The notes under the pieces were generated by a model that searched no databases, was not told where the DNA came from, and saw nothing but the letters and a program-made list of their open reading frames with translations. A stretch of DNA of 64,000 nucleotides. Source: Cytobacillus gottheilii (GTDB lineage Bacteria; Bacillota; Bacilli; Bacillales; Cytobacillaceae). The stretch lies in assembly GCF_001636345.1 (NCBI RefSeq), contig NZ_KV440945.1, forward strand, positions 1,456,975-1,520,974. Reading direction: 5' to 3'. Each line of letters starts with the position of its first letter. Within the stretch, counting starts at the first letter, position 1. Position numbers and translations under genes: made by a program. Positions 11,591 through 31,850 of the stretch are shown here, piece by piece.

Positions 11591-13309
11591 ATGAAGGTGA
11601 AATATAAAAAAATCATCTGGGCTGCTTGGATCTTGTTAATGCCAGCTTCACTTTGGATTGCCTATCATTTTTATCCTCCTCCTGTTGAAGCAGTTCCGCT
11701 GACTGATTTGGCAGCCTTCTTTTTACTTACCTTTCTCGTTGCGCTATTACCTGTCGTCATAAATAATACACCAGTGTTTTTACTGCAATGGGTCTCTATG
11801 GCGGTTTTTCTTTTATTTGGTCTGTTTATTGAAATTTTGCTGGCTCAATTTGCGATTTTTGTGCTGCTTGCCAGACTCAATATCAGTAAAAATAAACAAC
11901 TGTATCGACTGCCTTTAAATTCAAGTATGTTCCTGCTTGTTTCTTTATTTAGCGGTATGCTTTACTATGCAGTTGGCGGTGTTTCCGCCGACCAGCTCAC
12001 CTATAATACTGAGTCCTTTTTTATTGCTCTCTTATATCCAGTCTTTTACTATATTTTAAATTTATTATTTCTTATTTTTATAGATATTGTTTTAACGGAT
12101 AAAAAGAAGTTTCTCTTTGGAAAAGATATGGTTTGGGACATGCTCTCATCATTAGCATCTTTCCCTGTAGGGTATGTTCTGTTTATTTTATATAAGGAAA
12201 TTGGTGTCATTGCCGTTTTATGTGTCGGCATACCATTTGCCAGTCTTTCGCTGATTATGAGTCTATATTCCTCCAGTGAAAATGTGAATGCGTATTTACA
12301 AAAAGTATCGGAAATAGGCCATCAGCTGGCAGAACGATTAAAAGTCGGAGCAGTACTCGATTTATTTATGGAAAAGCTGATTCAGATGCTTCCAGCAGAT
12401 TATGCCTATCTAATGGACATTGTGGACGGGAAAGAGCTGCAGATCATCCGCAGTTATGAAAATGGGCAAATAAACCGAGCGGTGATGAAGCCGCTAAAAA
12501 AAGGAGAAGGAATAAGCGGTTTTGTGTGGGAACAAAAAAAGGGTGTCCTATTTAAGACAAGAAAAGATTGGCAGCTGCTGATTAAAGGGTATGTGCCTGC
12601 CAATATCGAAAGCATTGTCTCTGTTCCGGTTGTTCGAAACAGCGAAGTAACCGGTGTACTCTTTTTGGCTTCTACAAGAAAAGCCGTTTTTGACAAATCT
12701 TTGCTGATGATTGTTGATATCCTTTGTTCACATCTGGCCATTGCTGTCGAAAATGCCAATCATTACGAGAAAACAAAAGAAAAAAGCGAGCGCTGTGCAC
12801 TAACAAAGCTTTATAATTACAGATACCTTGAGAAAAGACTGAATAACGAATTTGCAAAACTGGCAAAACAGGAGATATACACACTATCTTTAATCATTCT
12901 CGACCTTGATCATTTTAAATCTATCAATGATAACTATGGACATCAAAGCGGCAATGAGATTTTATGTGAACTGGCAAATCGTTTGACAGCAGCTACCGGT
13001 GATTCTGGAATTGTTGCCCGGTATGGCGGTGAGGAATTTGTTATTGTTCTTCCCAACTATCCAAAGCATGAAGCTATTCAATTTGCTGAAACTTTAAGGC
13101 TCCTGCTGGCAAATAAGCCGTTTCAATTATCACAGCATATTGGAGCAGAACAGATCGATCTGGAAATACAGATCACGGCCTCATTTGGGGTCGCGGCAGC
13201 ACCAGAAAATGCCGAAGACCCAATGACTCTTATTCGCCATGCTGACAGAGCACTCTATACTGGCGCGAAAAGAGCGGGGAGAAATAAGGTCGCAGAGTAT
13301 GTGAAGTAA
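11591..13309 (+). CDS. membrane-anchored diguanylate cyclase (GAF-GGDEF)
   Basis: This enzyme should make c-di-GMP from two GTP at the membrane. The N-terminal 230 residues hold about six hydrophobic segments. They are followed by a GAF-like domain (about 245-390; KGEGISGFVWEQKKGVLF, VPVVRNSEVTGVLFLAS). The GGDEF domain spans about 410-572 with an intact active site GGEEF near residue 479 (ARYGGEEFVIVLP) and LDLDHFKSINDNYGH upstream. The RxxD product-inhibition site five residues before GGEEF is missing (GDSG in its place). The start ATG 11591 lies 6 bp after AAGGAGGG. It is the first gene of the pilus island, and its product could act on the MshEN domain of PilB (23662). B. subtilis has no counterpart here. 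Confidence 0.9.
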   Translation: MKVKYKKIIWAAWILLMPASLWIAYHFYPPPVEAVPLTDLAAFFLLTFLVALLPVVINNTPVFLLQWVSMAVFLLFGLFIEILLAQFAIFVLLARLNISKNKQLYRLPLNSSMFLLVSLFSGMLYYAVGGVSADQLTYNTESFFIALLYPVFYYILNLLFLIFIDIVLTDKKKFLFGKDMVWDMLSSLASFPVGYVLFILYKEIGVIAVLCVGIPFASLSLIMSLYSSSENVNAYLQKVSEIGHQLAERLKVGAVLDLFMEKLIQMLPADYAYLMDIVDGKELQIIRSYENGQINRAVMKPLKKGEGISGFVWEQKKGVLFKTRKDWQLLIKGYVPANIESIVSVPVVRNSEVTGVLFLASTRKAVFDKSLLMIVDILCSHLAIAVENANHYEKTKEKSERCALTKLYNYRYLEKRLNNEFAKLAKQEIYTLSLIILDLDHFKSINDNYGHQSGNEILCELANRLTAATGDSGIVARYGGEEFVIVLPNYPKHEAIQFAETLRLLLANKPFQLSQHIGAEQIDLEIQITASFGVAAAPENAEDPMTLIRHADRALYTGAKRAGRNKVAEYVK

Positions 13310-13321
13310 AGGTGCTTCGGA

Positions 13322-13352
13322 AATAGGAGACAGGTTTCTGTCTTCTATTTTT
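13322..13352 (+). terminator. terminator after the diguanylate cyclase gene
   Basis: ATAGGAGACAG and CTGTCTTCTAT pair around GTTT (one G-U pair) and are followed by TTTTTT. Confidence 0.8.
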
Positions 13353-13477
13353 TATTAAAAAAATTTTATGATTTCAATAGATTTATCTATTTGTTTTATA
13401 GGTAAATTGGTATACTTATAGTATAAAAGTTCTGAAATTAATCTGAAAAATTTATATATTTGAAAGGAGTGAAAAAG

Positions 13478-16375
13478 ATGAAGCAAATAAAGAAAGGCTT
13501 TTTACTATTATTGATGCTGCCATTGCTATTATCTATTCTTTTTTCTCCAGCTGGAGCGTCTGCAGCAGCAGATCCTCCGTCGGTAAACTTTTCGGCAAAA
13601 GCGTCGCAGAAAATTATTGTTAAGCCGCAGAATGCAGATGCAATTGGAGGTCTTGACCTTCATCTTATGCCAAAAGGAATGGCTACAAATCCTGAGAGAG
13701 ATCCGATCGACCTAATCTTCATCTTTGATAAATCGGGTTCGATGAATGAATCGGGTAGAAATCCGAAAAAGTTTCAGGATGCAAAGGATGCCATTGAAGA
13801 AGCGGTTGAGTATTTTAAAGAGCATGGACAGCCTGGAGATCGTTTTGGGTTAGTTCCTTTTGATACAAAAGTATCGGATAGAGTTGTGTATTTCTCATTT
13901 AATGATTTTATAAGCAATCTAAATAAAATTGAGGATACTGTGAATACTTTATCTGCCTCTGGGGGTACAAACTATACTCAATCTTTTGAAAAAGCACTTG
14001 AAATGCTCGGTGGCCAAACGAATGGGGCAGAAAAACCGGCAGAAAACCAATATGTAATTTTTATGACTGATGGGGAGCCTACTTTTTCTAACTATAAGGA
14101 AGCAATAACTTATCAGAAACAAGTTCAAGTAGGAACTAGAGAAGATTGTTTCTTGTTTTGGTGTTCTACTGTACCAGTATATGAGAAAAAAACAGTAACT
14201 GAAAATGTTCTTGTTTATCATGAAATATACACAGACACTAGAACAGGCCGCGATTTTAGTGAAGTATATTATTATCTGAATGGCAACCGTTACACTATCA
14301 ACCAGGACGTAAATGAAACAAAAAGGCGAATTAAACAGCATGGTATAAATATGGCACAATCCCTTGCTCAAAAAGATATTAAACTGTATTCAATAGGCTT
14401 TGGCAATGACAGTGAAGTCGATATGGATTATTTGCGCAAGCTATCATCTGTAACTGGTGTAACAGCCCGCCAAGCATCACAAGGGAATATATCTGAAGTT
14501 TTCCGGGCGATTTCCGGGGAAATCGATACACCATCCATCAGCGGGGAAATTACAGTAGATCTTAACAAATTTAATGGAAAAGTGAAGCTGCAGGATGGTG
14601 CAAATGCTACCATTACGAATGGAATTGCGACCATTAAGTTTGATTTAAAATATCCTTTAAATCAAAGAGCTCCACAGCCAATTGATTTCTCTCTGCCATT
14701 AAGCTTTACGCAAGCAGGAGATTATGTATTTGATAATATTAAACTTTCATACAGGGATATTGATGGCAAAGCAGTTGCGCCAATCACCCATGCACCTGTA
14801 AAAATCTCTGTAAAAGATGATGCCGCGCCAAGTATGGTTGGTGAGATGAGCTTAAAGGGTGTTATCAATAATCCGGATAATTTAATCAAAGTTTCTGGTT
14901 CTAATGAAAGAACAAATGAATTTAAAGTCAATTATTCTTTAAGTCCGAATGGTTTATTCAATAATCAAGTGAAGGGAAATCTATCAAATATCCAAATTGT
15001 TCAGCCACTGCCAAGCGGCGTTTCTCTAATTCCTTCTGAAGGAGTTAAGCTTATCACTGGACAAGATGGTCGTCCGGCAGCACAAATTACACTAGGTCAG
15101 TCAATCAATTATGCTTCCGGTGTTTTTTCACCGAACAGCTTAGCTGCTTCTTTAAACCTAAAAGGGGACTGGGCGCTAAATAACGTCAAGATGCCAACAG
15201 CGTATGTTACGTACAAAGATAGCCGTTTTGGTGAGCAGCAGGCTTCCATTGCTCCAGCCAACCAGTTTATCAATTTAAAGGTGCGCTTGAATGAAATGGG
15301 CGGCAAAGCATATGATGGATATGCTTCTGGTCTCATAAACAAGGTGGATCTTAATAACAATAATACAGTTGTTGCACAAACAGAGTTCCCAAATGATTAC
15401 GGATTAAAGCCTAAGCCAATTAAGGATATGGAATTTGTCGGCGATAAAAATACAGCCATTAAAGTAACATATTCTGATAATGAAGAAGTGATCATCTACT
15501 TGACTCCGGATTTTGAGATGACAGGACAGGATAGCGGAGTTGTCTACAAGGACGGAGACGTTACAAGTGAAAAAGTCAATGTGGATGTTACACAGCTGGT
15601 TGCCGGCAAAGGAGTTAAGTATTATTACTCTATTGAGAATCCTAACGGCAATATTGGGTGGACAGAATTTGACCCTTCAAAATCCATCGTAATCGATGAT
15701 ATAGGGAAAAATACGATCAGAATAAAAGCTGAAGGCGGATTTGCCTTCAATACGCCTGTAGAAAAGGATATTACTCTTCAAGTTCCAGTTGAATCAATCC
15801 ATGTAACACCAAATCCATTGGAACTGGAAGTGGATGAAGTTAAGTCCTTTACGGTTAACATTTCTCCGCTAAATGCATCTAATAAAGATCTTGATATTTA
15901 TATCGAAGATCAGAATATAGCTGAATATAAAGGGGATATGAGAATTATCGGCAAAGCTGAAGGTGAAACCTATTTAGTTGTCAAAGCGAAAGATGGCTCT
16001 GGTATAACAGTCAGGGTGCCGGTAATTGTTAAAGACGCTTATATTGGATTAAAAGAAATTAAGTTTATCAAGTCTGTCTTCAAAATTGAAGAAGGTGAAG
16101 AGATTGCTCTCAGCGATGTGTTAATCTTTAACCCTAATAATGCAACAGACAAAGACATTGAATCTCTGCTGTCTACTCTGCCAGATAAAGTATCTGTAAG
16201 AAAAGAAGGATCTGAGTGGTATATTATCGGTGAAGAAGTCGGTTATTCTACGGTAACCGCAGAAGCCGAAAAGCAAAGAGATCAATCAAAACCAAAGGCA
16301 TCTGCTTTATTTGAAGTAGGACCTGAGGGAGCAGACCATGACAGCGGCGGCTCAAATGGAGCAGGACGCTGGTAA
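13478..16375 (+). CDS. secreted von Willebrand factor A domain protein, candidate pilus-associated adhesin
   Basis: A 965-residue exported protein. The signal peptide is MKQIKKGFLLLLMLPLLLS... with likely cleavage after ASA near residue 29. The vWA domain covers about residues 77-350 with a complete metal-ion site: DKSGS at 84-88, the SGGT threonine near 164 and TDGE near 198. An insert at about 214-275 holds two cysteines (C224, C229). The C-terminal half is all-beta; residues about 768-855 look like a bacterial Ig-like (Big_2) module (VESIHVTPNPLELEVDEVKSF), with a second one to about 950. There is no LPxTG motif or C-terminal anchor. Start ATG 13478 has AAAGGAG 8 bp upstream. Its position between the cyclase and the minor pilins suggests a tip adhesin like PilY1 or the vWA pilins of streptococci; this is inference. 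Confidence 0.85.
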   Translation: MKQIKKGFLLLLMLPLLLSILFSPAGASAAADPPSVNFSAKASQKIIVKPQNADAIGGLDLHLMPKGMATNPERDPIDLIFIFDKSGSMNESGRNPKKFQDAKDAIEEAVEYFKEHGQPGDRFGLVPFDTKVSDRVVYFSFNDFISNLNKIEDTVNTLSASGGTNYTQSFEKALEMLGGQTNGAEKPAENQYVIFMTDGEPTFSNYKEAITYQKQVQVGTREDCFLFWCSTVPVYEKKTVTENVLVYHEIYTDTRTGRDFSEVYYYLNGNRYTINQDVNETKRRIKQHGINMAQSLAQKDIKLYSIGFGNDSEVDMDYLRKLSSVTGVTARQASQGNISEVFRAISGEIDTPSISGEITVDLNKFNGKVKLQDGANATITNGIATIKFDLKYPLNQRAPQPIDFSLPLSFTQAGDYVFDNIKLSYRDIDGKAVAPITHAPVKISVKDDAAPSMVGEMSLKGVINNPDNLIKVSGSNERTNEFKVNYSLSPNGLFNNQVKGNLSNIQIVQPLPSGVSLIPSEGVKLITGQDGRPAAQITLGQSINYASGVFSPNSLAASLNLKGDWALNNVKMPTAYVTYKDSRFGEQQASIAPANQFINLKVRLNEMGGKAYDGYASGLINKVDLNNNNTVVAQTEFPNDYGLKPKPIKDMEFVGDKNTAIKVTYSDNEEVIIYLTPDFEMTGQDSGVVYKDGDVTSEKVNVDVTQLVAGKGVKYYYSIENPNGNIGWTEFDPSKSIVIDDIGKNTIRIKAEGGFAFNTPVEKDITLQVPVESIHVTPNPLELEVDEVKSFTVNISPLNASNKDLDIYIEDQNIAEYKGDMRIIGKAEGETYLVVKAKDGSGITVRVPVIVKDAYIGLKEIKFIKSVFKIEEGEEIALSDVLIFNPNNATDKDIESLLSTLPDKVSVRKEGSEWYIIGEEVGYSTVTAEAEKQRDQSKPKASALFEVGPEGADHDSGGSNGAGRW

Positions 16376-16394
16376 AATGAATAGCTAGAACATG

Positions 16395-18532: not shown

Positions 18533-19093
18533 TTAAAAGCCGAATTGACTGTCAAGCTCCAAATTTCCTTCCGCAAGCCTTTTATGTGATAAATTGAAAT
18601 GAAGCTGAATAATTCCATTCTCACAAGGACCACCTTCACAGCCTGTAATGGTCGAATTTGAAAAATCGGACTGAACATCTAAAGCAGCTCCATCAATTTC
18701 AAATACTGAAATCGTTTGATCGTTCACTGTTTTATCTGTCAGCTGTATAACCGTTACTTTTTCTTCATCATATACACTTGATTGATCAATACTGTAAAAT
18801 GATTGCTGTTCTCCTTCTTCAAGTGCAACAGTGGTATGCTCGCTGTCTACAAGCTCTATGCAGTTGTCTCCGCAGGAACGGACATAATCAAAAGGAGTAG
18901 AGTAAAAGGCATTCATAATCATGGTCGCTGTATAGTCAGCATCATCGCGGAGCTGGCCTTCAGCATTTACTTTATTGTACAATTTATAGCCTGACGAAAA
19001 GACACCATATATCACCGGCAATACAATCATTAAGATGACCATTACCGCGAGCAGCTCATAGAGTGTTGCTCCTTTTTCATCTAATATCTTCAC
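18533..19093 (-). CDS. PilW-like minor prepilin
   Basis: The 186-residue protein has a type IV prepilin N-terminus: leader VKILDEKG, then ATLYELLAVMVILMIVLPVIYG with Glu at mature position 5. The globular part has two cysteine pairs (SCGDNC; GCEGGPC) that could form disulfides outside the cell. The GTG at 19093 is chosen because AAGGAG lies 9 bp before it and it gives a short leader. A longer ATG version (19141) would have a 24-residue leader and no SD. It overlaps the upstream pilin gene by 17 bp, pointing to translational coupling. The large PilX-like gene follows 11 bp downstream. Confidence 0.8.
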   Translation of the reverse strand: MKILDEKGATLYELLAVMVILMIVLPVIYGVFSSGYKLYNKVNAEGQLRDDADYTATMIMNAFYSTPFDYVRSCGDNCIELVDSEHTTVALEEGEQQSFYSIDQSSVYDEEKVTVIQLTDKTVNDQTISVFEIDGAALDVQSDFSNSTITGCEGGPCENGIIQLHFNLSHKRLAEGNLELDSQFGF

Positions 19094-19601
19094 TTTGAAT
19101 AGCTCCTTCAACCTCGGTCGATTTTTGATGATCACCATCATTCCATGTCACTACTGCTTTAAGCGGAACAAAATAGTCCTCATGATTTTCTTTATAATCA
19201 CTAGAATAATTAGATGTAATACGCACATCATATTTTATATTGTTTACTGTAATGGATGAGCAGTCTGCTGACTGTGTTTCGCCCTTCCAAAACAAATTAT
19301 ATTGTTCACTGCCATTTGGATTTTTACATATATAAATACGTAACTCTTCATTTTGATTAGTAGAGTTGGAGGAGGAGAATTTCTCTCTCATTTCTATAAA
19401 ACTCTGATTTTCGACATACATCAAGGCATTGCGGGCAACATTGACAGCTGCCGTTTTGGTCTCGTTTTTATTGGTGTAGGAAAATGCTTGTGTAAAAAAG
19501 CTCATGATTCCAATTAAAACGATACTCAAGATGGTTAATGAGGCTAAAACCTCAATAAGAGTAAGGCCTTTAGTACTAGAAAGGATTTTTTTACAATTCA
19601 T
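19077..19601 (-). CDS. PilV-like minor prepilin
   Basis: The 174-residue protein starts MNCKKILSSTKG, then LTLIEVLASLTILSIVLIGIMSFF, a standard prepilin cleavage and assembly helix with Glu5. Two cysteines (ICKNPNG and SADCSS) may pair. The ATG at 19601 lies 5-6 bp after GAAGGGA; an ATG at 19619 is in frame but has no SD. It is the first gene of a three-gene minor-pilin operon on the minus strand. The order PilV-PilW-PilX-like resembles the minor-pilin (priming) operons of other type IV pilus systems. Processing by PilD encoded at 28106 is expected. Confidence 0.82.
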   Translation of the reverse strand: MNCKKILSSTKGLTLIEVLASLTILSIVLIGIMSFFTQAFSYTNKNETKTAAVNVARNALMYVENQSFIEMREKFSSSNSTNQNEELRIYICKNPNGSEQYNLFWKGETQSADCSSITVNNIKYDVRITSNYSSDYKENHEDYFVPLKAVVTWNDGDHQKSTEVEGAIQSEDIR

Positions 19602-19632
19602 TCGTTTCCCTTCTTTCATTCTTGATGATTAT

Positions 19633-19752: not shown

Positions 19753-21162
19753 ATGATTAGCTTCATTTTAGCTGCAATCTCCCTAATCGTCATTATTCCG
19801 CTCGTCATTTATTTGCCGCTCGGTTTAACGAAAAAAGGGAAAGTGATGATGACCGTTTTATCCTTTTCATTTGCACTGCTTGGCATAGCGGGACAATCGG
19901 TGATGGAATTATGGAAGTTATTATTAATACTGCTTCTGCTGGTTGTTATGAGCGGGTATTTAATGATGAAGAGAAGCGAGCAATTTCTTGCAGCAGAAGC
20001 AACTGCAGACACTGCTTTTCCTCTTTACAATCAGGATGATCATCAAGAGTATAAAGAAAAGGAAGCCGAAGAGGAGGTATCTCCTATTGAGGACCATGAT
20101 TCAGTGATCGAAATGATCGAAACAGATCACGATGAAGAAAATGTACTGGAAGTTTTTGAAGCAGAAATTATAGTGCCGGTAGCTGATTCTAAGCAAACTG
20201 ATGCAGTGGTGTTAGCGGAAAAGGCAGAAGCGGAATCAGAAACGGAAGCAGAAGCAGTGGACGGACAGCTTGATGAAATTGACTTCGACCAAATTAGATT
20301 AACTGAACTTGCACAAGACAAAGAGACGCTTGCTATAGACGAAAAGGAAGATGAGTCTAAAGATGCGGAGCTTTCCTATATTGGTGAGCTGGAGTCACTG
20401 ATGTCTGATGACAATCCTGTCATACAGGTAGAGCAAAAGTACGAGGAAAACTTGCCTGGTAAAACCGAAGAAAATGAGTTTAGCCTTGGTCTGGAATTAG
20501 AGGATGATGATTTTATTATCCCTGCTTCAGTCGAAAATGAGACAAGCACTTCAGAGCAAGAGCTGAAGTCAGAGGAAAGCGAACTTCTCGATGAAAGTTC
20601 ATACATTATCCCTTCACTAGAGGAAATGCTGGAGGAGGATGAAGTCTCTGCTGAAGAAATTCTTCAGCCTCAAGATGGTGAAGAACTGATTGTGCTTGAA
20701 GAGTTCCAAGAAAGTCTCGAAGAAGAAGTCGTTAATGAAAGTGATGAGATCATTCCAGAGCTTATGGCCGATGAAGAAGATCCTATTATAGAGGAAGAAG
20801 AAGAGCCGTGGATTCTAGCAGCAACATCATCTGATTCGGATGAAGAGCAGCAAGAACAAGAAGAAAATATCACCCTTCAAAGAGAAGTGCTGAAAACTCT
20901 TCTTGAACAGCTTCAACTGGCAAAAGAAACAACCGAACCTCATGTATACGAAAAATGGATTCAGCAGTGCATGCAGCAAAAAATGCCGCAAAAAGAGCAT
21001 TACATCTTTGCCAGCCTGCTAATCGAACACTATATTTCACAGCAAGAGCACCAAAAACTGAAAACCTTACTAAACGAACTAAAAAAACAATATTCCAACA
21101 TGCCAATCATCTCAGAACAAATCCAATTTTTACTACTTTCTTATTCCAATCAGGAACAGTAA
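19753..21162 (+). CDS. acidic bitopic/polytopic membrane protein of the pilus island, function unknown
   Basis: I do not recognise this family. The 469-residue protein begins with two hydrophobic segments (about residues 2-24 and 32-68). A long, strongly acidic, low-complexity stretch follows, about residues 75-365, rich in Glu and Asp with almost no aromatic residues. The C-terminal 100 residues are helical and more balanced (LQREVLKTLLEQLQLAKE, HYIFASLLIEHYISQQEHQKL), resembling a TPR-like helical module. The ATG at 19753 follows GAGGTGAAACG. It is transcribed divergently from the minor pilins and precedes the PRC-barrel and VanW/G5-like genes. The layout (membrane anchor, acidic linker, helical end) is broadly like FimV-type pilus scaffold proteins, but that is only an analogy. 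Confidence 0.75.
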   Translation: MISFILAAISLIVIIPLVIYLPLGLTKKGKVMMTVLSFSFALLGIAGQSVMELWKLLLILLLLVVMSGYLMMKRSEQFLAAEATADTAFPLYNQDDHQEYKEKEAEEEVSPIEDHDSVIEMIETDHDEENVLEVFEAEIIVPVADSKQTDAVVLAEKAEAESETEAEAVDGQLDEIDFDQIRLTELAQDKETLAIDEKEDESKDAELSYIGELESLMSDDNPVIQVEQKYEENLPGKTEENEFSLGLELEDDDFIIPASVENETSTSEQELKSEESELLDESSYIIPSLEEMLEEDEVSAEEILQPQDGEELIVLEEFQESLEEEVVNESDEIIPELMADEEDPIIEEEEEPWILAATSSDSDEEQQEQEENITLQREVLKTLLEQLQLAKETTEPHVYEKWIQQCMQQKMPQKEHYIFASLLIEHYISQQEHQKLKTLLNELKKQYSNMPIISEQIQFLLLSYSNQEQ

Positions 21163-21471: not shown

Positions 21472-22227
21472 ATGAAAAACAGCTCACAAATTACAGGATT
21501 GCCAATTATCAGCATCGCAGACGGACAGCAGATCGGCGCAGTAAAAACACTTGTAATCAACCCTGAAAAAGGCACAATTGACTTCCTGACAATCGAACAC
21601 GAAGACTGGCAAGTAAGCGTTAAAGCAATTCCATTCAAAAAAGTTGTCGGAATTGGAGAATACGCTATTACTGTCGAAACAGACAACGCCGTCATTGACC
21701 TCAACGAAATTCCAATTGCAAACCAGCTCGTAAACAAAAAAATTAAAATCAACCAAACAAAAGTAATGACACGAAAAGGTGCATTGCTTGGTGAAGTTAT
21801 TGAATTTTACGCTGATGACGAAACTGGTCAAATCCTTGGAATGGATTTACTTGTAGGTGAAAAACAAGTGACAATGCCTTCAGAGTACGTACTTACGTAT
21901 GGAAAGGATATTGTTATTGTAAAAGAAGATGCAGAACAAGGCTTCCTTGATAACCATGAGCTTCTTGGACAACAAACACCTGAAACGGATTCCATCCACC
22001 ATGAGGAAGCGGCTGCTAGTGAAGAACAGCAAAATACGAAGCAGCTTGATGCCTTGAAAAATAAACAGGTGGAACTGCTTGTTGGCAAAAAAGTGAATAA
22101 AGATATTATCGGTTTAGATGGACAAGTTTTCATTCCAGCTGGAACCATTCTAACAGAAGACCAAATACACTCTGCGCAAACGGAAGGACCAGCAGTCCTA
22201 ATTGAATTGGCAGTAAATGTTGAATAG
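21472..22227 (+). CDS. PRC-barrel domain protein of the pilus island
   Basis: The 251-residue cytosolic-looking protein has two PRC-barrel-like repeats: about residues 8-78 (GLPIISIADGQQIGAVKTL) and about 88-155 (KVMTRKGALLGEVIEFYAD). PRC-barrels often bind RNA, nucleotides or partner proteins. A third small beta module closes the protein (GKKVNKDIIGLDGQVFIPAG). A Glu/Gln-rich linker covers about 158-195. Charged composition and no signal peptide or membrane helix indicate an intracellular role. It sits between the acidic membrane protein and the VanW/G5-like gene and probably starts the long transcript that runs through pilO. The domain call is from sequence look; the pilus role is inferred from position. 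Confidence 0.75.
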   Translation: MKNSSQITGLPIISIADGQQIGAVKTLVINPEKGTIDFLTIEHEDWQVSVKAIPFKKVVGIGEYAITVETDNAVIDLNEIPIANQLVNKKIKINQTKVMTRKGALLGEVIEFYADDETGQILGMDLLVGEKQVTMPSEYVLTYGKDIVIVKEDAEQGFLDNHELLGQQTPETDSIHHEEAAASEEQQNTKQLDALKNKQVELLVGKKVNKDIIGLDGQVFIPAGTILTEDQIHSAQTEGPAVLIELAVNVE

Positions 22228-23661: not shown

Positions 23662-25326
23662 ATGACTCAAGTTCGTAAAAGATTAGGAGACTTGCTTGTT
23701 GATGCAGGGTTAATTACGGAAGAACAGCTGCAGCTGACGCTTAAAGAAAAGAGCAGCGGGCAAAAGCTTGGAGATGCCCTCCTGCAGCGCGGATATGTGA
23801 CAGAGCAGCAGCTGATCGAAGTATTGGAATTTCAGCTTGGCATTCCACATGTAAGTTTGTACCGTTATCCATTTGATACGAATCTATTTAGTATAGTTCC
23901 AAAGGATATGGCGAAACGCAACTTAATCATTCCCATGAAAAAAGATGGAGATAAGTTATACGTAGCGATGGCCGATCCTATGGACTTTTATACCATTGAT
24001 GATCTTCGTCTATCAACCGGCTTCCAAATCGAAACAGCGATTGCAACAAAAGATGATATTTTGCGTGCAGTCAATAAATACTACGATATGGATGAAGGGC
24101 TGGAGGAATTATTCGGGACTTCACCTGCACATACAGAAGAAGTAGAACAAGAGAAAATCGTTGACCAGGATTCTCCGATTGTCCGTCTAGTTAACCAAGT
24201 ATTGACGAATGCCGCTGTTGTAAAGGCCAGTGATGTGCATATTGATCCGCAGGAGACAAAGGTAGTTATCCGCTATCGTGTGGATGGCATACTCCGAACA
24301 GAGAGAGTGCTGCCTAAGCATATGCAAAGTGTTCTTACAGCAAGAATCAAAATCATGGCGAATCTTGATATTACAGAGCATCGGATTCCTCAGGACGGCA
24401 GAATCAAGATGAACTTGGATTTCCACCCGGTTGATTTGCGTGTATCCACATTGCCTACTGTCTATGGTGAAAAAATTGTTATGCGTCTTCTTGACCTTGG
24501 AAGTACGCTGAATGACATTAATAAACTGGGCTTTAACAAAGTAAATCTTCAGCGCTTTACCGATATGATTGAAAAACCAACAGGGATTGTTCTCATAACA
24601 GGGCCAACAGGTTCCGGTAAATCGTCCACTTTATATGCGGCTTTAAACAAGCTTAATAGCGAAGAAGTGAACATTATAACAGTCGAAGATCCTGTTGAGT
24701 ACCAGCTTGAAGGCATTAATCAAATTCATGTGAACTCAAACGTGGGAATGACGTTTGCCGCTGGACTGCGTGCCATCCTTCGGCAAGACCCGAATATTAT
24801 CATGGTTGGGGAGATTCGTGATAAGGAAACAGCGGAAGTTGCCATTCGTGCTTCCTTAACAGGGCATCTCGTGTTAAGCACCTTGCATACAAATGATTCA
24901 ATTGGCACGATTACAAGATTAGTAGACATGGGTGTTGAGCCTTTCCTTGTTGCCTCTTCATTGAGCGGGGTTGTGGCACAGCGACTTGTCCGAAGAGTTT
25001 GCCGTGACTGTGCGAAAACAATGGAGCCATCAAAACGGGAGATTGAGATTTTTGCCAAGAGAGGCATGAAAATCGATCAGGTTGTAAAAGGTGCCGGCTG
25101 TTCATCCTGTAATATGACTGGCTATAAAGGCCGTGTCGCGATCCATGAAGTTTTAGTTGTAGATGATGTTATGCGCCGTGTGATTATGAATGGTGAATCT
25201 CTCTCGAAACTAAGAGAAATTGCCATTAAAAACAAAACGATCTTCCTTGTTGATGATGGATTAATCAAAATCAAGCAAGGAATTACAACAACAGAAGAGG
25301 TGCTAAGAGTAGCACTACCTGATTAG
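23662..25326 (+). CDS. pilB: type IV pilus extension ATPase PilB with MshEN domain
   Basis: PilB is the hexameric cytosolic motor that drives pilin polymerisation. The N-terminus (residues 4-60) has the tandem MshEN pattern, RLGDLLVDAGLITEEQL then KLGDALLQRGYVTEQQL, a known c-di-GMP-binding module. In the first half the usual terminal Gln is Lys. The C-terminal ATPase has Walker A GPTGSGKSST near residue 313, an Asp box (VEDPVEYQLEG), Walker B near 380 (IIMVGEIRD), the His box (LSTLHTND) and a tetracysteine zinc site (CRDC near 448, CSSC near 479). The 554 residues are full length. PilT follows 12 bp downstream. It is distinct from ComGA, which lacks the MshEN head. Confidence 0.95.
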   Translation: MTQVRKRLGDLLVDAGLITEEQLQLTLKEKSSGQKLGDALLQRGYVTEQQLIEVLEFQLGIPHVSLYRYPFDTNLFSIVPKDMAKRNLIIPMKKDGDKLYVAMADPMDFYTIDDLRLSTGFQIETAIATKDDILRAVNKYYDMDEGLEELFGTSPAHTEEVEQEKIVDQDSPIVRLVNQVLTNAAVVKASDVHIDPQETKVVIRYRVDGILRTERVLPKHMQSVLTARIKIMANLDITEHRIPQDGRIKMNLDFHPVDLRVSTLPTVYGEKIVMRLLDLGSTLNDINKLGFNKVNLQRFTDMIEKPTGIVLITGPTGSGKSSTLYAALNKLNSEEVNIITVEDPVEYQLEGINQIHVNSNVGMTFAAGLRAILRQDPNIIMVGEIRDKETAEVAIRASLTGHLVLSTLHTNDSIGTITRLVDMGVEPFLVASSLSGVVAQRLVRRVCRDCAKTMEPSKREIEIFAKRGMKIDQVVKGAGCSSCNMTGYKGRVAIHEVLVVDDVMRRVIMNGESLSKLREIAIKNKTIFLVDDGLIKIKQGITTTEEVLRVALPD

Positions 25327-25338
25327 GAGTAAAACGGT

Positions 25339-26379
25339 ATGGTAAATAAAATTGATTTGCTTCTGAAGGCAGGCTTTGAGCTAAAAGCATCAGATATTCA
25401 TCTCACGGTTGGTGTACCGCCAATCATGAGGATCAATGGAGATTTAAAACGCTACGGGCAAGATACGCTTCTGCCGGCAGATACTGAAAGCATGGCAAGA
25501 GCCGTAATCCCGGATCATCTCTGGAATACATTTAAGCAAAATGGCGAGCTGGATTTTTCCTATGGCCTGCATGGCGTTTCCCGTTTCAGGGTGAATGCTT
25601 ATCATCAGCGTTCTTGTGTGGCACTTGCAGTCCGTGTTGTTCCGACGAAAATACCTTCAATGGATGAACTGGACTTGCCGCTGATCTTAAAAGAAATTGC
25701 AGCAAAGCCGCAGGGACTTGTACTTGTTACAGGACCTACAGGCAGCGGGAAATCAACCACGCTTGCGTCAATGATTGATTATATGAACCAGACCATGCGC
25801 AAGCATGTCATTACACTGGAAGATCCAATTGAATATTTGCATAAGCACGGCAAATGTATCATAGATCAGCGTGAGGTTGGCTTTGATACGAATAACTTTG
25901 CGAATGGTTTAAGAGCATCACTCAGACAGGATCCTGATGTTATCTTAGTAGGAGAAATGAGAGATCTTGAAACGATCCAAACGGCTATAACGGCAGCAGA
26001 AACAGGACACTTAGTGTTTGCAACCTTGCATACATCCAGTGCCCCTGCAACCATTAACCGGATCATTGATGTCTTTCCGCCGGCACAGCAGGATCAGATT
26101 CGCATTCAGCTTGCATCTGTGCTTGTTTCCATTGTCTCGCAGCGCTTGTTTCCGCTTGTTAATGGACAGGGCAGAAAAGCGGCAACGGAAATTCTGCTCA
26201 ATAATGCGGCTGTCGCTAACCTTATTCGCAATGAAAAAATTCATCAGATTGTGAATGTAATGCAAACATCAAGAAGTCAGGGCATGCATACATTGGAGAC
26301 CAATGTGAAAGAGCTTTATCAGAACGGTTTAATTTCAAAGGAACTCGCGAACCCTTATTTAGTTGAGAAGGTGGAATAA
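25339..26379 (+). CDS. pilT: type IV pilus retraction ATPase PilT
   Basis: PilT powers pilus depolymerisation and twitching motility. The 346 residues carry Walker A GPTGSGKSTT near residue 131, the Asp box (ITLEDPIEYLH), Walker B (VILVGEMRDLETI), the His box (FATLHTSSAP) and a C-terminal AIRNLIRE-like motif (VANLIRNEKIHQI) that is specific for PilT as opposed to PilB. The ATG lies 9 bp after AGGAG. A retraction motor argues for a dynamic pilus, not just a DNA-uptake pseudopilus, because the ComG system has no PilT. pilC starts 1 bp after its stop. Confidence 0.95.
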   Translation: MVNKIDLLLKAGFELKASDIHLTVGVPPIMRINGDLKRYGQDTLLPADTESMARAVIPDHLWNTFKQNGELDFSYGLHGVSRFRVNAYHQRSCVALAVRVVPTKIPSMDELDLPLILKEIAAKPQGLVLVTGPTGSGKSTTLASMIDYMNQTMRKHVITLEDPIEYLHKHGKCIIDQREVGFDTNNFANGLRASLRQDPDVILVGEMRDLETIQTAITAAETGHLVFATLHTSSAPATINRIIDVFPPAQQDQIRIQLASVLVSIVSQRLFPLVNGQGRKAATEILLNNAAVANLIRNEKIHQIVNVMQTSRSQGMHTLETNVKELYQNGLISKELANPYLVEKVE

Positions 26380-26380
26380 G

Positions 26381-27586
26381 ATGCCTCGTTATAAATATAG
26401 CGGAAGAGACCGAAAAGGAAATAAGTCAGGTGTCATCACCGCTTCTTCAAAACGTGAGGCAGTGGTTCAGCTGAGGGAAAATGGCATTCGTGTCATGGAT
26501 TTTCAGGAATTGCCCGAAACGGTCCTGACAAAGGATATTACGATCGGCAACCCTGTTAAGCTAGAAGACTTTGTCATCTATCTGCGGCAATTTTCGACTT
26601 TGCTGAAGGCTGGCGTGTCTGTTGTCGACTCGACCGCCATCCTTTCCGAACAAACGGAAAGCAAAGCACTGCGAAAAGCCTTAAAGGTTGTTGAACAGGA
26701 TCTGCGGGAAGGAAATCCACTTTCTGAGGCAGCGGCGAAGCATAAGAAGATCTTTACAAGCATGTTTATTAATATGATTCGTGCTGGTGAAGTAGGCGGT
26801 AATATGGATGATACGCTTGAGAGATTAGCAGTTCATTATGAAAAGCAGCATTTTACAAAGCAAAAAATCGTCTCAGCTCTCGCATATCCTATTGTGGTAG
26901 GAATCATTGCTGTTGCGGTTGTCATCTTTTTGCTTGTCTCTGTTGTTCCGACCTTTGTTGAAATGTTTGAGGACTTTGGGGGCGAGCTTCCAGCGATCAC
27001 GCAGTTTGTCTTGAAATCCAGTGAACTGATGCAGGTATACTGGTGGCTGGTTATACTGTTTTTTATCGCCATTTTCGTAGGCATTATGGTTATTCGCAAT
27101 AATAAACAAACAAAATATTATTTAGATTATTTTCTATTAAGAATGCCGATTTTCCGAAAGATTTTTCAAAAAGCAGCGTTAGCCCGGATGACGAGAACAT
27201 TAAGCTCTTTATTTACTTCATCCGTTCCAATTCTGCAGGCAATGACCATTGTTGAAAATATTGTTGAAAATGAAGTCATTGCAAAAGTAATTCGCCAATC
27301 GAGAGATTCACTAGAGCAAGGCCGCTCATTAACAGAGCCAATGCGCAGGCACTGGGTCTTTCCGCCCCTTGTCTCGCAGATGATTGCGATTGGTGAGGAA
27401 ACCGGTTCTCTTGATGCCATGCTGGCAAAAGTAGCAGACTTCTATGAAAAAGAAGTAGAAAGTGCGACAGATCGCTTAAAATCTCTCATTGAACCAATCA
27501 TGATTGTCTTCCTGGCAGGCATTGTCGGAACAATCGTTACATCCATTATGGTGCCGATGTTTGAGATCTTTAACCATGTCGGGTAA
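26381..27586 (+). CDS. pilC: type IV pilus inner-membrane platform protein PilC
   Basis: The polytopic platform protein couples PilB/PilT to the growing fibre. The 401 residues hold an N-terminal cytosolic stretch (MPRYKYSGRDRKGNKSG) and two homologous T2SSF domains (about 70-195 and 270-395), each with the conserved FxxxxxxLLxAGV pattern (FSTLLKAGVSVVD; LSSLFTSSVPILQAM). Membrane helices lie near 170-195, 218-242 and 372-398. ATG 26381 is preferred over an upstream in-frame ATA/ATG-rich extension because GAAGGTGGA sits 6 bp ahead. It is packed tightly against pilT, and the next gene, pilA, has its own promoter. Confidence 0.95.
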   Translation: MPRYKYSGRDRKGNKSGVITASSKREAVVQLRENGIRVMDFQELPETVLTKDITIGNPVKLEDFVIYLRQFSTLLKAGVSVVDSTAILSEQTESKALRKALKVVEQDLREGNPLSEAAAKHKKIFTSMFINMIRAGEVGGNMDDTLERLAVHYEKQHFTKQKIVSALAYPIVVGIIAVAVVIFLLVSVVPTFVEMFEDFGGELPAITQFVLKSSELMQVYWWLVILFFIAIFVGIMVIRNNKQTKYYLDYFLLRMPIFRKIFQKAALARMTRTLSSLFTSSVPILQAMTIVENIVENEVIAKVIRQSRDSLEQGRSLTEPMRRHWVFPPLVSQMIAIGEETGSLDAMLAKVADFYEKEVESATDRLKSLIEPIMIVFLAGIVGTIVTSIMVPMFEIFNHVG

Positions 27587-27651: not shown

Positions 27652-27700
27652 GAGACTAGTAAAAAAGTAACATAAAATTCACATTTTAAGGAGAATGAAC

Positions 27701-28099
27701 ATGTTTCAAAAACTAAGAAACACATTAAAAAATCAAAAAGGTTTAACTCTTATTGAGCTTCTTGCTGTTATTGTTATTTTAGGGATTATTGCTGCGATTG
27801 CTATACCTAGTATTGGTGGGATTATTAACAAGTCAGAAAAAGATGCTACAGTAGCAGAAGGAATTCAAATAATTAGTGCAGCTAAAATGTATGTTACATC
27901 ATCAAACCCTGAATCTGGTGCAAAGTTGACACAAACTGAATTAGGTCAATTTTTAGATAGTGTTGATGATACAGACTATACTGTAACCTTAACAAAAGAT
28001 AGTGCTGGTAAATTTATCTACACATTAGAAGATCACGATTCAGTACCATTAGTATCAGATACTGATTCTGCTACTGAAAAAAATCTATTAGATTATTAA
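27701..28099 (+). CDS. pilA: major type IV pilin PilA (prepilin)
   Basis: A 132-residue prepilin: leader MFQKLRNTLKNQKG, cleavage after G14, then LTLIELLAVIVILGIIAAIA with Glu5. The mature protein is about 118 residues, small for a major pilin but typical of Gram-positive ones. No cysteines, and an acidic C-terminus. Start: ATG 27701 is 7 bp after AAGGAG, whereas ATG 27695 is only 1 bp away. Its own promoter and SD and its place between pilC and pilD argue that it is the major subunit; a second pilin gene lies at 31398. Processed and N-methylated by PilD encoded next door. Confidence 0.9.
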   Translation: MFQKLRNTLKNQKGLTLIELLAVIVILGIIAAIAIPSIGGIINKSEKDATVAEGIQIISAAKMYVTSSNPESGAKLTQTELGQFLDSVDDTDYTVTLTKDSAGKFIYTLEDHDSVPLVSDTDSATEKNLLDY

Positions 28100-28105
28100 G
28101 AACGG

Positions 28106-28849
28106 ATGTATATACTAGTTCTCATCTACGGCCTCCTCCTAGGCTCCTTCTACAACGTAGTCGGCCTTAGGGTCCCGAACGGAGAGTCAATTGTAAAGCC
28201 GCGGTCGCATTGTCCAAAGTGTGGACATGTTCTCACGCCGCTTGAGCTTGTCCCAGTTTTATCTTATGTATTTTTACGAGGAAGATGCAGGTGCTGTAAG
28301 GCACCTGTTTCGCTCGTTTATCCGCTAATTGAATTGATGACAGGTTTGCTGTTTGTGGCAGCGCCACTCCTTATGGGGTGGAGTGCGGAATTATTGATTG
28401 CCTGGACGCTTATCTCTCTGATCGTCATCATCTGGATCACCGATATTAAATACATGCTGATCCCAGATAAAATCCTGCTTGTATTTGCAATTATCTTAAT
28501 AGCTGAACGTATCTTTATTCCGCTCACACCGTGGTGGGATTCAATTGCTGGTGCTGCAGTCGGTTTTGGTCTGCTGCTTTTTATTGCCGTAATCAGTAAA
28601 GGCGGCATGGGGGGCGGAGATATTAAGCTTTATGGAGTTCTCGGAATAGCACTTGGAGTAAAGCTTGTCCTATTATCATTTTTTATTGCTACTTTAATAG
28701 GAGCTGTTTTTGGCGGTTTGGGCTTGCTGACAGGCAAACTTAAAAGAGGAAATCCGATTCCTTTTGGTCCTTTTATCGGGATTGGTGCTTTAGCAGCTTA
28801 TTTTTTTGGCAATGACATTATCACCTGGTATTTGCATTCACTATTATAA
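28106..28849 (+). CDS. pilD: prepilin leader peptidase / N-methyltransferase (PilD/ComC)
   Basis: A membrane aspartyl protease that cuts prepilins after Gly and methylates the new N-terminus. The 247 residues hold the N-terminal methylation domain with two zinc-type CxxC pairs (CPKC near 34, CRCC near 61). The two catalytic aspartates are in DIKYMLIPD near 112 and GGMGGGDIKLYG near 171. About seven to eight membrane helices. The gene starts 6 bp after pilA. It takes the chromosomal place of B. subtilis comC (folC-comC-spoIIB), so it may also process the competence pseudopilins if a comG operon exists elsewhere. That dual use is inferred. Confidence 0.94.
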   Translation: MYILVLIYGLLLGSFYNVVGLRVPNGESIVKPRSHCPKCGHVLTPLELVPVLSYVFLRGRCRCCKAPVSLVYPLIELMTGLLFVAAPLLMGWSAELLIAWTLISLIVIIWITDIKYMLIPDKILLVFAIILIAERIFIPLTPWWDSIAGAAVGFGLLLFIAVISKGGMGGGDIKLYGVLGIALGVKLVLLSFFIATLIGAVFGGLGLLTGKLKRGNPIPFGPFIGIGALAAYFFGNDIITWYLHSLL

Positions 28850-28861
28850 GGAGTTTTGAAA

Positions 28862-29854
28862 ATGGCCTTTCGTTTGAAGCTGGGAAAACAATCAAATATT
28901 AGCCTGATCATTAAGGATCATGTTATTCGTTTAGCTGAGGTAAAGTCACATGGAGATCTGCACATCCAGCGTTTAGAAGAACGGTTTATTCCTAGTGGAT
29001 TGATTAAGGAAGGCAGAATTCAGGATAGTGAAACATTACTAGCCATTTTAGAAGAATGTGTGAATGAATGGAAGCTAAAAAACAAGCAAGTAACCTTTTT
29101 AGTTCCGGATCCTTTCATTGTCATGAGAAAAATAGCAATCCCTGCTGATGTGCATGAAGATGAACTGAAGGGCTATTTATTTATGGAAATTGGTGCAACG
29201 ATTCATCTTCCGTTTGAGGATCCAATATTTGATTATTATTCTTTGCCGCAGCAGAACAATGAGCGCAAGGAAGTACTGCTTTTTGCCGCACCTGAAAGTG
29301 TAGTTGCTGAGTATACAGATATTCTGGAAGAGGTAAAGCTTAAGCCGGCAGCAGCTGACTTATCAGCACTTTCTCTTTATAGACTGTATCATAAGCTCGA
29401 TATGGCAAACGCGGATGAAAACTTAATGCTCGTTCAATATGATCTTACAACCGTAAATGTTAGTATATTTGAAAATCATATCCCGATTATTATGCGCCAT
29501 CTAAAGCTGGACATTGATGCATCACAATGGGATACGGTCAGATCTGAAAATGGCGGCAGGAAGCTTCATTATTCAGGATCTGCAAATGATGTAGGCAGTT
29601 CCTTAATGGACAGCTATAAAGAAATCGACCGGGTTCAGGATTATTATCAATTTTCACTGACACAAGGCAAAAAGAAGATTACGAAGATCGTTGTCGATGG
29701 TGATCATCCTTATCTTGACGATATTTTTAAAGAAATGAAGAATCGCTATTCTGTACCTGTTTTAACATTAAAAAATGATGTGATAGATTCGGGTCAGGAT
29801 GCTGAGCTTCCTTCATTTTATTTGAATATCGGATTAGCTTTAAAAGAGGTGTAG
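28862..29854 (+). CDS. pilM: pilus assembly actin-like ATPase PilM
   Basis: PilM is a cytosolic actin-like protein that joins the PilN/PilO membrane complex and helps position the pilus motor. The 330 residues show the family start (SLIIKDHVIRLAEVKSHGDLH), the conserved helix region DELKGYLFMEIGATIHLPFEDPIFDY and the second subdomain (LMLVQYDLTTVNVSIFENHIP). ATG 28862 lies 8 bp after AAGGAG; an in-frame TTG (28856) is too close to the SD. PilN, encoded next, has the INLLP tail known to dock into PilM. Part of the same operon. Confidence 0.9.
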   Translation: MAFRLKLGKQSNISLIIKDHVIRLAEVKSHGDLHIQRLEERFIPSGLIKEGRIQDSETLLAILEECVNEWKLKNKQVTFLVPDPFIVMRKIAIPADVHEDELKGYLFMEIGATIHLPFEDPIFDYYSLPQQNNERKEVLLFAAPESVVAEYTDILEEVKLKPAAADLSALSLYRLYHKLDMANADENLMLVQYDLTTVNVSIFENHIPIIMRHLKLDIDASQWDTVRSENGGRKLHYSGSANDVGSSLMDSYKEIDRVQDYYQFSLTQGKKKITKIVVDGDHPYLDDIFKEMKNRYSVPVLTLKNDVIDSGQDAELPSFYLNIGLALKEV

Positions 29855-29857
29855 AAG

Positions 29858-30496
29858 ATGTTAGTCGATATTAATCTGCTTCCGCAAAAAGAGAAAAAAA
29901 CAAAAGCTTCTTATATCGTTCTTCTAGCTTCTATATTGATTGTGTTGATGATAGCTACTGTTTTCTTTTTTATCATTCAGGACCGGAAGCAGTCTATTGC
30001 GGATACTGAGCAGCAGCTGGCACAAACAACGGAGCTGCTGGAGGCAAAGCGGGCAAAGCTGGAAAACTATCAGTCCTCCAATTCTGTAACAGACTTACAA
30101 AATGCAATTACTTGGGCAGATCAGCAGCCTTATAATGTAGTTTATATGCTGCAGGGGCTGACAAAACTTCTGCCAGAACGGGGCTTTATCAGCGAGTTTG
30201 AAATGGACGAAGATCATGCAGTTAATCAGCAGGTTCAATTTGATACAAAATCAGAAGCCGCATACTATTTGAGCTTGCTGACATCTGTTGATTGGATAGA
30301 GGAAGCTGTGCTTACGGAAGCGCAAACAGCTGACTTAACCGACCAGGAAAATGAATCTGCTGTTAGTGATGATATTGTTCCAAGATATATTGCCAATTAC
30401 GAGATGAGAATCAATGTGCCTGCATTAAAAGAGGCTGCTCAGACAGAAAATGATGAGCAAGATCGTGTCCAGGATGAAGGAGGCACTTCACCATGA
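29858..30496 (+). CDS. pilN: pilus assembly protein PilN
   Basis: A bitopic membrane protein, 212 residues. The short cytosolic tail MLVDINLLPQKEKK contains the INLLP docking motif for PilM. One membrane helix follows (YIVLLASILIVLMIATVFFFII, about 23-44), then a coiled coil (about 48-75) and an outer alpha/beta ferredoxin-like domain. The C-terminus is acidic. It begins 3 bp after the pilM stop and overlaps pilO by 4 bp (ATGA), so PilM, PilN and PilO are translationally coupled. Confidence 0.9.
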   Translation: MLVDINLLPQKEKKTKASYIVLLASILIVLMIATVFFFIIQDRKQSIADTEQQLAQTTELLEAKRAKLENYQSSNSVTDLQNAITWADQQPYNVVYMLQGLTKLLPERGFISEFEMDEDHAVNQQVQFDTKSEAAYYLSLLTSVDWIEEAVLTEAQTADLTDQENESAVSDDIVPRYIANYEMRINVPALKEAAQTENDEQDRVQDEGGTSP

Positions 30497-31290
30497 ATGT
30501 ACAGCTTTCAAAAAAACAGCTTGGCTTTGGCTTCCTGGGAATTGTTTTAATCGGTATTCTCACTTTCGGGCTTTATTACTTATTTATTTTGCCGCTGAAC
30601 GATCAGATTGACCGTAAGAACACAGAACTCGATATGGCAAGACAGGAACTTGATATTATTGATAATACGTTAACTCAAAATAGTGAGCAGACCGTTTTAA
30701 ATACGATGGAACTGCAAAAAGAAGTGCCTGTTAAGCGTCTTTTAGATCAGCTTCTTTTAAATGTGGAAAAGGCTGAAATTGTTTCGGATGCAACTATTAA
30801 TGAAATACAGCTTAATGGAACACAGGAAGATGAAAATATTGATTTGATCAGTGAAGAAGGAACAGTACAATATGATCCAGAAACAGAGGAAGAGCAAGCT
30901 GATCCTGAGGAAATTGTAGATGAAGATTCTGAAACAAGTGAAACAGGAGAACCCGAAACTCCATTGCCAAACGGCATTAAAAAAACATCACTAACATTGT
31001 TTGGAGAGTCAGATTCCTATTTTGAATTAGAGAAGCTGCTTGAGAATCTATTGTCTATGGAGCGGATTATTAAAATAGAAGAATTGAATTTTACTGGTCT
31101 TCAGGAGGTATATTCTGTCGAGCAGGATACGAGCAATGTCACATTTGAAATCACTCTTGCTGCCTATTATTATCCAGCACTTGAAGATTTAGAGGCAGAG
31201 CTTCCGCCGGTAGATGCACCAGATGGTTCAAATAAAAGCGATCCTCTAAATCGCTTCACAACGGAAGAAGATGAAGATGATACACCTTAA
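30493..31290 (+). CDS. pilO: pilus assembly protein PilO
   Basis: The partner of PilN in the membrane alignment complex. It has 265 residues: a short cytosolic tail, one membrane helix (LGFGFLGIVLIGILTFGLYYLFIL, about 10-33), a coiled coil (PLNDQIDRKNTELDMARQEL, about 35-60) and an outer domain. The outer domain contains a very acidic insert, about residues 112-155 (EEEQADPEEIVDEDSET), which Gram-negative PilO proteins lack. The C-terminal tail is also acidic. The ATG overlaps the pilN stop. There is no PilP or PilQ gene after it, as expected for a cell without an outer membrane. Confidence 0.85.
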   Translation: MNVQLSKKQLGFGFLGIVLIGILTFGLYYLFILPLNDQIDRKNTELDMARQELDIIDNTLTQNSEQTVLNTMELQKEVPVKRLLDQLLLNVEKAEIVSDATINEIQLNGTQEDENIDLISEEGTVQYDPETEEEQADPEEIVDEDSETSETGEPETPLPNGIKKTSLTLFGESDSYFELEKLLENLLSMERIIKIEELNFTGLQEVYSVEQDTSNVTFEITLAAYYYPALEDLEAELPPVDAPDGSNKSDPLNRFTTEEDEDDTP

Positions 31291-31397
31291 GAGGGGTATT
31301 TGCTATTATGCAATGGCAGCAGGCTTATAATAGCAATCTTCCTCTCTCTGTTGAAACTCTGTAAAAAATACTTCTGTCGAAAAAGAGGGGTCTAGTC

Positions 31398-31850
31398 ATG
31401 ATCAAAATGGACACTAGACTAAACGAAAAAGGACTTACATTAATTGAACTGCTTGCTGTGATTGTTATTTTAGGCATTGTCGCTGCAATTGCCGTTATGT
31501 CGATTACAAACGTCATTCAAAAGGCACGCGATCAGGCCTTTGTCGGCAATGCGATCGCTTTGAAAGAAGCTGCTGACTTTTATATTCGTCATGAATTAAC
31601 AAGCGGAGGCACCCTTCAAGCTTCTGTTTCTTATAAAGCGCTGGAAGAACAGCAGTTTATAGATGCATTTAAAGATCCGCATAGCGGTGACTTGCTAGAG
31701 CCATCAGATGATACATATGTTGTGATAACAGGAGAATCAGCCACAGCTGTCTGTTTAAAAGGTACCGAGAAAAACCTTTGCACTTATAATGGTGCAGAAA
31801 ATGCCATTCCTATCAGCGAGTTAATCACAGCAAATATATTGCCGAATTAA
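31398..31850 (+). CDS. second type IV prepilin
   Basis: A 150-residue prepilin with leader MIKMDTRLNEKG and helix LTLIELLAVIVILGIVAAIAVMSI (Glu5 present), closely matching PilA in the first 30 residues and diverging after that. Unlike PilA it has a C-terminal cysteine pair (AVCLKGTEKNLCTY) that would form a D-loop-like disulfide. SD AGAGGGG lies 7 bp before the ATG. It is separated from pilO by 107 bp that contain an 11-bp inverted repeat (TTGCTATTAT at 31300 and ATAATAGCAA at 31327), and it ends in a strong terminator, so it may be a separate small transcript. It could be a minor pilin or an alternative major subunit. Confidence 0.88.
   Translation: MIKMDTRLNEKGLTLIELLAVIVILGIVAAIAVMSITNVIQKARDQAFVGNAIALKEAADFYIRHELTSGGTLQASVSYKALEEQQFIDAFKDPHSGDLLEPSDDTYVVITGESATAVCLKGTEKNLCTYNGAENAIPISELITANILPN

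Follow-up and report, generated by a model that had tools for sequence, protein, structure and literature searches.

The pilus locus

A stretch of 64,000 nucleotides of Cytobacillus gottheilii DNA (contig NZ_KV440945.1, positions 1,456,975 to 1,520,974), hereafter the window, carries a type IV pilus gene set at the locus of the prepilin peptidase gene comC. Between folC and a gene in the spoIIB position lie 17 genes, called from the open reading frames of the window and their matches to Pfam and NCBIfam profiles, and all 17 reading frames are open (Table 1). By these matches, the stretch is the type IVa pilus set of a monoderm bacterium, with a complete core of PilB, PilT, PilC, PilD, PilM, PilN, PilO and pilins. 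A preliminary description, made from the sequence without database searches, had already placed a type IV pilus set with PilT at the comC locus, and the profile matches bear this out. It counted 15 genes, although its own list also adds up to 17, and two of the three proteins that it left unassigned have Pfam domains. The comparison with related loci presented below indicates that the set is very probably an inherited operon, of which many relatives would have kept only pilD, that is, comC.

PilB (PF00437) and PilC (PF00482) score far over their Pfam cut-offs. For the class III prepilin signal (PF07963), three proteins of the set score over the cut-off and one under it. PilB would extend the pilus and PilT would retract it; the presence of PilT and of two pilin genes makes retractile pili likely. 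The secretin PilQ is expected only with an outer membrane and not in a monoderm, and a profile search of the window's genome found no secretin over the cut-off (best 19.4 bits against 27.5). To the right of the spoIIB-position gene follow maf (matched in the PDB), radC (NCBIfam) and mreB; mreB and mreC were named from the translation of their open reading frames.

Table 1. Genes of the pilus locus and its immediate flanks in the window, with the expectation values (E) or scores of their profile matches.
Feature	Position	Strand	Evidence or remark
folC	10247-11533		left flank of the pil set
Membrane GAF-GGDEF protein, predicted diguanylate cyclase	11570..13309	+	PF00990 E 3.5e-41; GGEEF motif read from sequence
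Secreted vWA/Big_2 protein, candidate tip adhesin	13460..16375	+	PF00092 E 4.7e-18; PF02368
Large minor pilin, 672 amino acids	16503..18521	-	predicted pilin-like N-terminal helix and beta-solenoid (AlphaFold2)
PilW-like minor prepilin	18533..19141	-	N_methyl E 0.038, under cut-off
PilV-like minor prepilin	19077..19619	-	N_methyl E 2.8e-5
Acidic 469-amino-acid protein (p469)	19753..21162	+	no Pfam match
PRC-barrel protein	21472..22227	+	PF05239 E 1.3e-12
VanW-G5 protein with membrane anchor, candidate cell-wall component of the pilus machinery	22233..23639	+	PF04294, PF07501
PilB extension ATPase with MshEN domain of the cyclic di-GMP (c-di-GMP) type	23662..25326	+	PF00437 E 3.5e-135; PF05157 E 5.3e-22; NF053729
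PilT retraction ATPase	25339..26379	+	TIGR01420 481 bits, cut-off 319
PilC platform protein	26363..27586	+	PF00482 E 9.5e-66
Pilin (PilA)	27695..28099	+	PF07963 E 1.2e-8
PilD/ComC prepilin peptidase	28106..28849	+	PF06750 (A24_N) E 5.4e-34; PF01478 (A24)
PilM	28856..29854	+	PF11104 E 1e-19, over cut-off
PilN	29858..30496	+	PF05137 E 5e-4, under cut-off; named by weak match and gene order
PilO	30493..31290	+	PF04350 E 0.003, under cut-off; named by weak match and gene order
Second pilin	31398..31850	+	PF07963 E 1.4e-7
Gene in spoIIB position	31867-33030		weak SPOR match, E 0.03

Occurrence across the order

The survey comprised 199 genomes, sampled evenly across the order (96 genera, 47 families), in which PilT was called by TIGR01420 at E 1e-100 or better, all calls lying over the curated cut-off. 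PilT is present in 146 of these genomes and in 78 of the genera, making type IV pili the common state in the order though laboratory Bacillus is without them. Wherever the positions of both proteins are listed (124 genomes), the two share a strand and are less than 10 kilobases (kb) apart, with PilT upstream of PilD in 118 genomes and downstream of it in 6 (G087, G130, G144, G148, G167 and G191; the loci L106, L139, L149 and L168 belong to G087, G130, G144 and G167). The remaining 22 PilT-bearing genomes include 18 with PilT near a full-length A24 protein.

For comparison with the window's proteins, 221 loci were assembled: the window's own, 140 from survey genomes and 80 from named relatives (handles in G denote genomes, those in L loci). 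Both samples are non-random, the former being the best A24_N scores with sequence available (140 of the 196 genomes with a match) and the latter the best 80 of 563 relatives. Beside pilD, pilB and pilC occur in 180 loci (operon loci); 30 loci are reduced, lacking pilB and pilC, with pilD flanked by folC on one side and by spoIIB, maf, radC or mreB on the other; and 11 fall in neither class. Of the 180 operon loci, 151 share the order pilB-pilT-pilC-pilA-pilD-pilM, which thus is not a chance arrangement; homologues of PilN and PilO are found in 159 and 155 of the 180. Within the fetched stretches, both flanks are visible in 61 operon loci, only the right one in 97, only the left one in 1 and neither in 21. 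The nearest named locus found, among the best 80 of 563 relatives, is that of Bacillus infantis (L181), with PilB 84% and PilD 69% identical.

All 18 reduced loci from survey genomes come from PilT-negative genomes. PilD is still at the site in 37 of the 53 PilT-negative genomes, as judged by folC and maf/radC where the locus was fetched (18 of 26) and by maf alone in the others (19 of 27). Both states occur within 16 of the 96 genera and 20 of the 47 families. Named reduced loci include those of Peribacillus butanolivorans, P. frigoritolerans, Mesobacillus foraminis, Lederbergia galactosidilytica, Siminovitchia thermophila and Cytobacillus horneckiae, and named congeners with the operon are P. 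acanthi, M. subterraneus, L. panacisoli and C. praedii.

Some loci depart from these patterns. After pilD, on the site's folC side, L149 and L168 have a pil set in another order, which looks like a replacement of the operon in place. Five loci from Alkalibacillus and relatives (L248, L251, L105, L166 and L128) have the order pilB-pilC-pilA-pilD-pilM without pilT, and folC and maf are absent from the fetched stretch. The record titled Pseudomonas sp. ISL-84 (L190) shows a valS-folC-PilD-spoIIB-maf locus of Bacillaceae type and is probably misnamed.

Leftovers in reduced loci

In the 30 reduced loci, the folC-pilD and pilD-maf/radC intervals were divided into all their stop-to-stop pieces and searched with profiles built from the operon loci. 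Whole or broken pil genes were found in 7 of the 30 loci, and a reversed control of 3,940 pieces gave no match. The most complete case, G025, keeps whole VanW-G5, pilM, pilN and pilO genes and a piece of p469; G100 has pilM as two overlapping pieces, pilN, a scrap of pilO and one pilin; G070 has pieces of pilO and p469; and G082 has one pilin gene. Short pilin pieces remain in G044 (40 amino acids) and G093 (28 amino acids of the N-terminus), and a pilC piece in Cytobacillus horneckiae (L192). The leftovers lie on the same sides as in the operon: pilC, pilin, VanW and p469 pieces stand before pilD, pilM/N/O after it, and the G100 pilin after pilD has the place of the window's second pilin.

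Part-decayed loci would show steps of operon loss. In Parageobacillus caldoxylosilyticus (L216, 8158-9402), a truncated pilB runs into a truncated pilC and pilT is missing; this locus was counted among the 180 operon loci despite its broken genes. L050 (G011) lacks a pilB match and has a pilT piece of 63 amino acids. From their gene remains, both seem to represent further or different stages of decay. A pilB scrap in G025 (E 0.0098) was too weak and was left out of the count. In-frame stops within matched spans were dropped as a sign of decay, since they are also common in mreB and spoIIB, where tblastn overruns the gene ends.

One peptidase, presumably for two machines

The genome of the window (4.59 megabases, 3 contigs) encodes a single A24_N protein, the PilD of the pil set. 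Its T2SSE-family ATPases number four: PilB, PilT and the proteins at C1:1743377 and C1:4291777. The third adjoins a ComGC match (C1:1745477) and hence belongs to a separate comG set. The fourth (G000:C1:4291777-4292625, minus strand) is perhaps of the Tad type. Across the 199 genomes, exactly one A24_N peptidase is found in 195, two in G087 and none in G053, G172 and G173, the last an assembly of 480 contigs. ComGC is present in all 30 genomes checked for it (29 over the cut-off), namely the 26 PilT-negative genomes with fetched loci, the three without an A24_N match and the window's genome. In G108 (C26:443293-479534), the ComGC match is split, with some 36 kb of a single contig between its two parts, as though comGC had been interrupted by an inserted element.

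Because the genome has only one peptidase of the PilD/ComC type, PilD presumably cleaves the prepilins of both the pil and the comG machines. The comG pilus presumably needs PilD, so PilD alone would tend to stay after each loss of the operon; as far as gene content tells, this sharing is what explains its retention. In the same way, comC would persist because no separate peptidase serves the competence pilus. Capture of pilD by competence regulation, through ComK boxes upstream of it, showed no sign: a search for two AAAA-N5-TTTT boxes at spacings of 8, 18 or 31, with 14 of 16 matches, gave none in the 30 reduced loci (0.2 expected) and one in the 180 operon loci (1.0 expected).

The comC site of Bacillus subtilis

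According to the available text of PMC7232415, comC of B. subtilis has folC and maf on either side and spoIIB as its neighbour, in line with the placement in the preliminary description, and comC of B. anthracis is located elsewhere. The proposal that PilD is the counterpart of ComC also holds, both being of the same protein family and at the same site (folC-spoIIB-maf). For finding the genus Bacillus among the survey genomes, B. subtilis Maf (PDB 1ex2) served as the query. In G111, G138 and G043 (family f44, genus g47), Maf is 79, 78 and 64% identical to it; in the other 27 matched genomes the identity does not exceed 59%, and in the fetched loci it is at most about 59% among the matches listed. 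G111, G138 and G043 are without PilT, and their PilD, known by position only, lies 1.4-1.5 kb from maf. In another genus of the same family f44 (g64), G081 and G185 have the complete operon, which follows folC and is itself followed by spoIIB.

Loss or gain of the operon

Trees were quick LG+G4 estimates from short proteins. Operon and reduced states require at least 25 changes on the tree of 191 PilDs (158 operon loci, 30 reduced) and at least 21 on the tree of the flanking genes maf-radC-mreB (155 loci, 28 reduced), for which shuffled states gave 24-28. Forcing the reduced loci into one clade is rejected (log-likelihood 1,057 lower, p 3.6e-29); the PilDs of reduced loci are not one clade, and the tree thus does not set PilD apart from ComC. 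As read from these trees, the state has switched many times, nearly at random on the PilD tree. Divergence of PilB/C/M tracks that of the radC/maf flanks (Spearman 0.68; radC against maf 0.67; 123 loci), and the base composition of the pil set is 39.6%, with 41.4 and 41.1% in the flanks. Neither foreign composition nor patchy congruence with the flanks, the marks of a mobile genomic island, is seen here. The preliminary description had called the set an island; as far as an insert was meant, the flank-like composition and the divergence in step with the flanks fit vertical descent instead.

The same site occurs outside the order. From a set of 98 PilT-bearing genomes, 64 outside the order were examined for maf. 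In 39 of these (17 of 26 families), where 0.24 were expected, PilT and maf share a strand, with PilT 1.6-18.7 kb upstream, and PilD lies between the two in 25 of the 35 linked genomes examined for it. The shared PilT-PilD-maf arrangement makes the operon at this site older than the order. The direction of change is given as loss by the leftovers, the agreement in divergence between operon and flanks, the ordinary composition and the shared site outside the order. The type IVa pilus operon at folC-spoIIB-maf is thus, with high probability on these comparisons, vertically inherited and ancestral here for the class Bacilli; it would have been lost many times, each time leaving a locus with comC only, and comC of B. 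subtilis would be such a remnant. This is the first of two histories in the preliminary description, and the leftovers in 7 of 30 reduced loci, the scatter of these loci and the same gene order in other orders speak for it.

The second history, in which the set grew around comC, is opposed by the same observations. In a wider form, the operon would have grown around an ancestral lone comC or entered many times beside it, with homologous recombination through folC, pilD and maf as one conceivable route. Exchange by way of shared flanks would likewise yield the same site every time, and the differently ordered sets after PilD (the six genomes with PilT downstream; L149 and L168) may be replacements in place. 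Such a course is quite improbable, however, as it leaves the pil gene remnants of reduced loci, the divergence in step with the flanks, the unremarkable composition of the set and the gene order shared with other orders of the class against it. Repeated loss has its own difficulties. The changes on the PilD tree fall inside the range of 20 shuffles (24-30, mean 27.7), errors in the trees may account for some of the scatter, and change counts alone cannot separate loss from gain. No leftovers were recognized in 23 of the 30 reduced loci, 4 of the 146 PilT-bearing genomes show no PilT-PilD link (G037, G140, G187 and G173), and outside the order the PilT-maf link was not found in 25 of the 64 genomes. 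Finally, the B. subtilis site was placed from the literature and from the Maf of relatives.

A different doubt concerns what the operon makes. It might be a dead relic, intact and unexpressed, or a non-retractile apparatus such as a short pseudopilus resembling type II secretion. PilB and PilC match GspE/GspF models as well as pilus models, all under the cut-offs of those models (the best NCBIfam model for PilB, TIGR02538, gives 623 bits against 675.65), and some relatives have broken sets (L050 and L216). Against this stand the 17 open reading frames of the window and the score of PilT, well over its cut-off, together with its presence in 174 of the 180 operon loci. Type II secretion is marked by the secretin GspD and is not known to include PilT; the window's genome has PilT and no secretin over the cut-off. 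A relic or pseudopilus is therefore considered unlikely.

Accessory proteins

The AlphaFold2 model of the 672-amino-acid protein (mean predicted local distance difference test score, pLDDT, 84.5) shows a pilin-like helix followed by a beta-solenoid. Its predicted shape resembles ComZ, the beta-solenoid tip pilin of Thermus thermophilus (PMC6561018, available text). ComZ is also the top Foldseek match, at an E of just 2.2e-3 with nothing below 0.001; in a VIA-align comparison with 278 chains, ComZ reaches Z 13.1 over 235 residues and unrelated solenoids score equally high, up to 14.8. The vWA gene adjoins the gene of this pilin in all 25 operon loci with a vWA match. The model suggests that the 672-amino-acid protein and the adjacent PilV- and PilW-like pilins form a tip complex like GspI/J/K, and with the vWA protein they would make up the pilus tip.

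Of the 180 operon loci, 160 have the VanW-G5 gene, against 1 of the 30 reduced ones (p 2e-21, uncorrected for relatedness); in 151 of those 160 it immediately precedes pilB. The protein model (mean pLDDT 83.6) shows a membrane helix and, at the C-terminus, a G5 domain, with a Foldseek match to the G5 domain of HP0197 (E 3.2e-7), and the protein would work in the cell wall. In diderms, a secretin passes the pilus fibre. It is conceivable, though rather doubtful, that VanW-G5 is an unnamed core part that guides or anchors the fibre through the monoderm cell wall in the secretin's stead and that the solenoid pilin and the vWA protein are the tip. This points out VanW-G5 as a putative machine part without prior study. 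The p469 gene is matched in 69 of 180 operon loci and whole in none of the 30 reduced loci, where two scraps of it occur.

PilB may respond to cyclic di-GMP through its MshEN domain. A loose MshEN-like consensus pattern occurs twice in 103 of the 180 PilBs, once in 52 and not in 25. A dedicated circuit from the GGDEF protein to PilB was rejected: the GGDEF gene stands in 35 of the 62 operon loci with folC in view and is kept in 11 of the 30 reduced loci (p 0.12), and so is not tied to the pilus.

Comparison with known systems

Pili of Bacillaceae are already known: Imam et al. (2011, PMC3244431) described pil operons in Bacillus sp. NRRL B-14911, Geobacillus and Exiguobacterium. The operon at the comC site, comC as its remnant and the history of loss were not found in the open-licence literature. 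With them, comC of the classic competence model would gain a history as the peptidase left from a pilus operon. If this is true, many Bacillaceae should have a single PilD shared by two machines, and loss of pilD should stop both.

The account of Imam et al. agrees with the present one in having a pil operon in Bacillus alongside com and, there, tad operons, and in noting PilT in Gram-positive pil operons; it differs in that the folC-spoIIB site, comC as a remnant and the losses are absent from its available text (PMC3244431). The ComC/ComG competence pilus of B. subtilis is similar in that PilD has its counterpart in ComC at the same site and a comG set is also present in the window's genome. 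In contrast, B. subtilis is not among the control genomes with a match to TIGR01420, the PilT-family model. The window's set resembles the monoderm type IVa pili of Streptococcus sanguinis and Clostridium in its clustered genes, PilM/N/O and lack of a secretin, but differs from them in its additional VanW-G5, PRC and vWA accessories, and the available text of the review that describes those pili does not cover Bacillus (PMC6916266).

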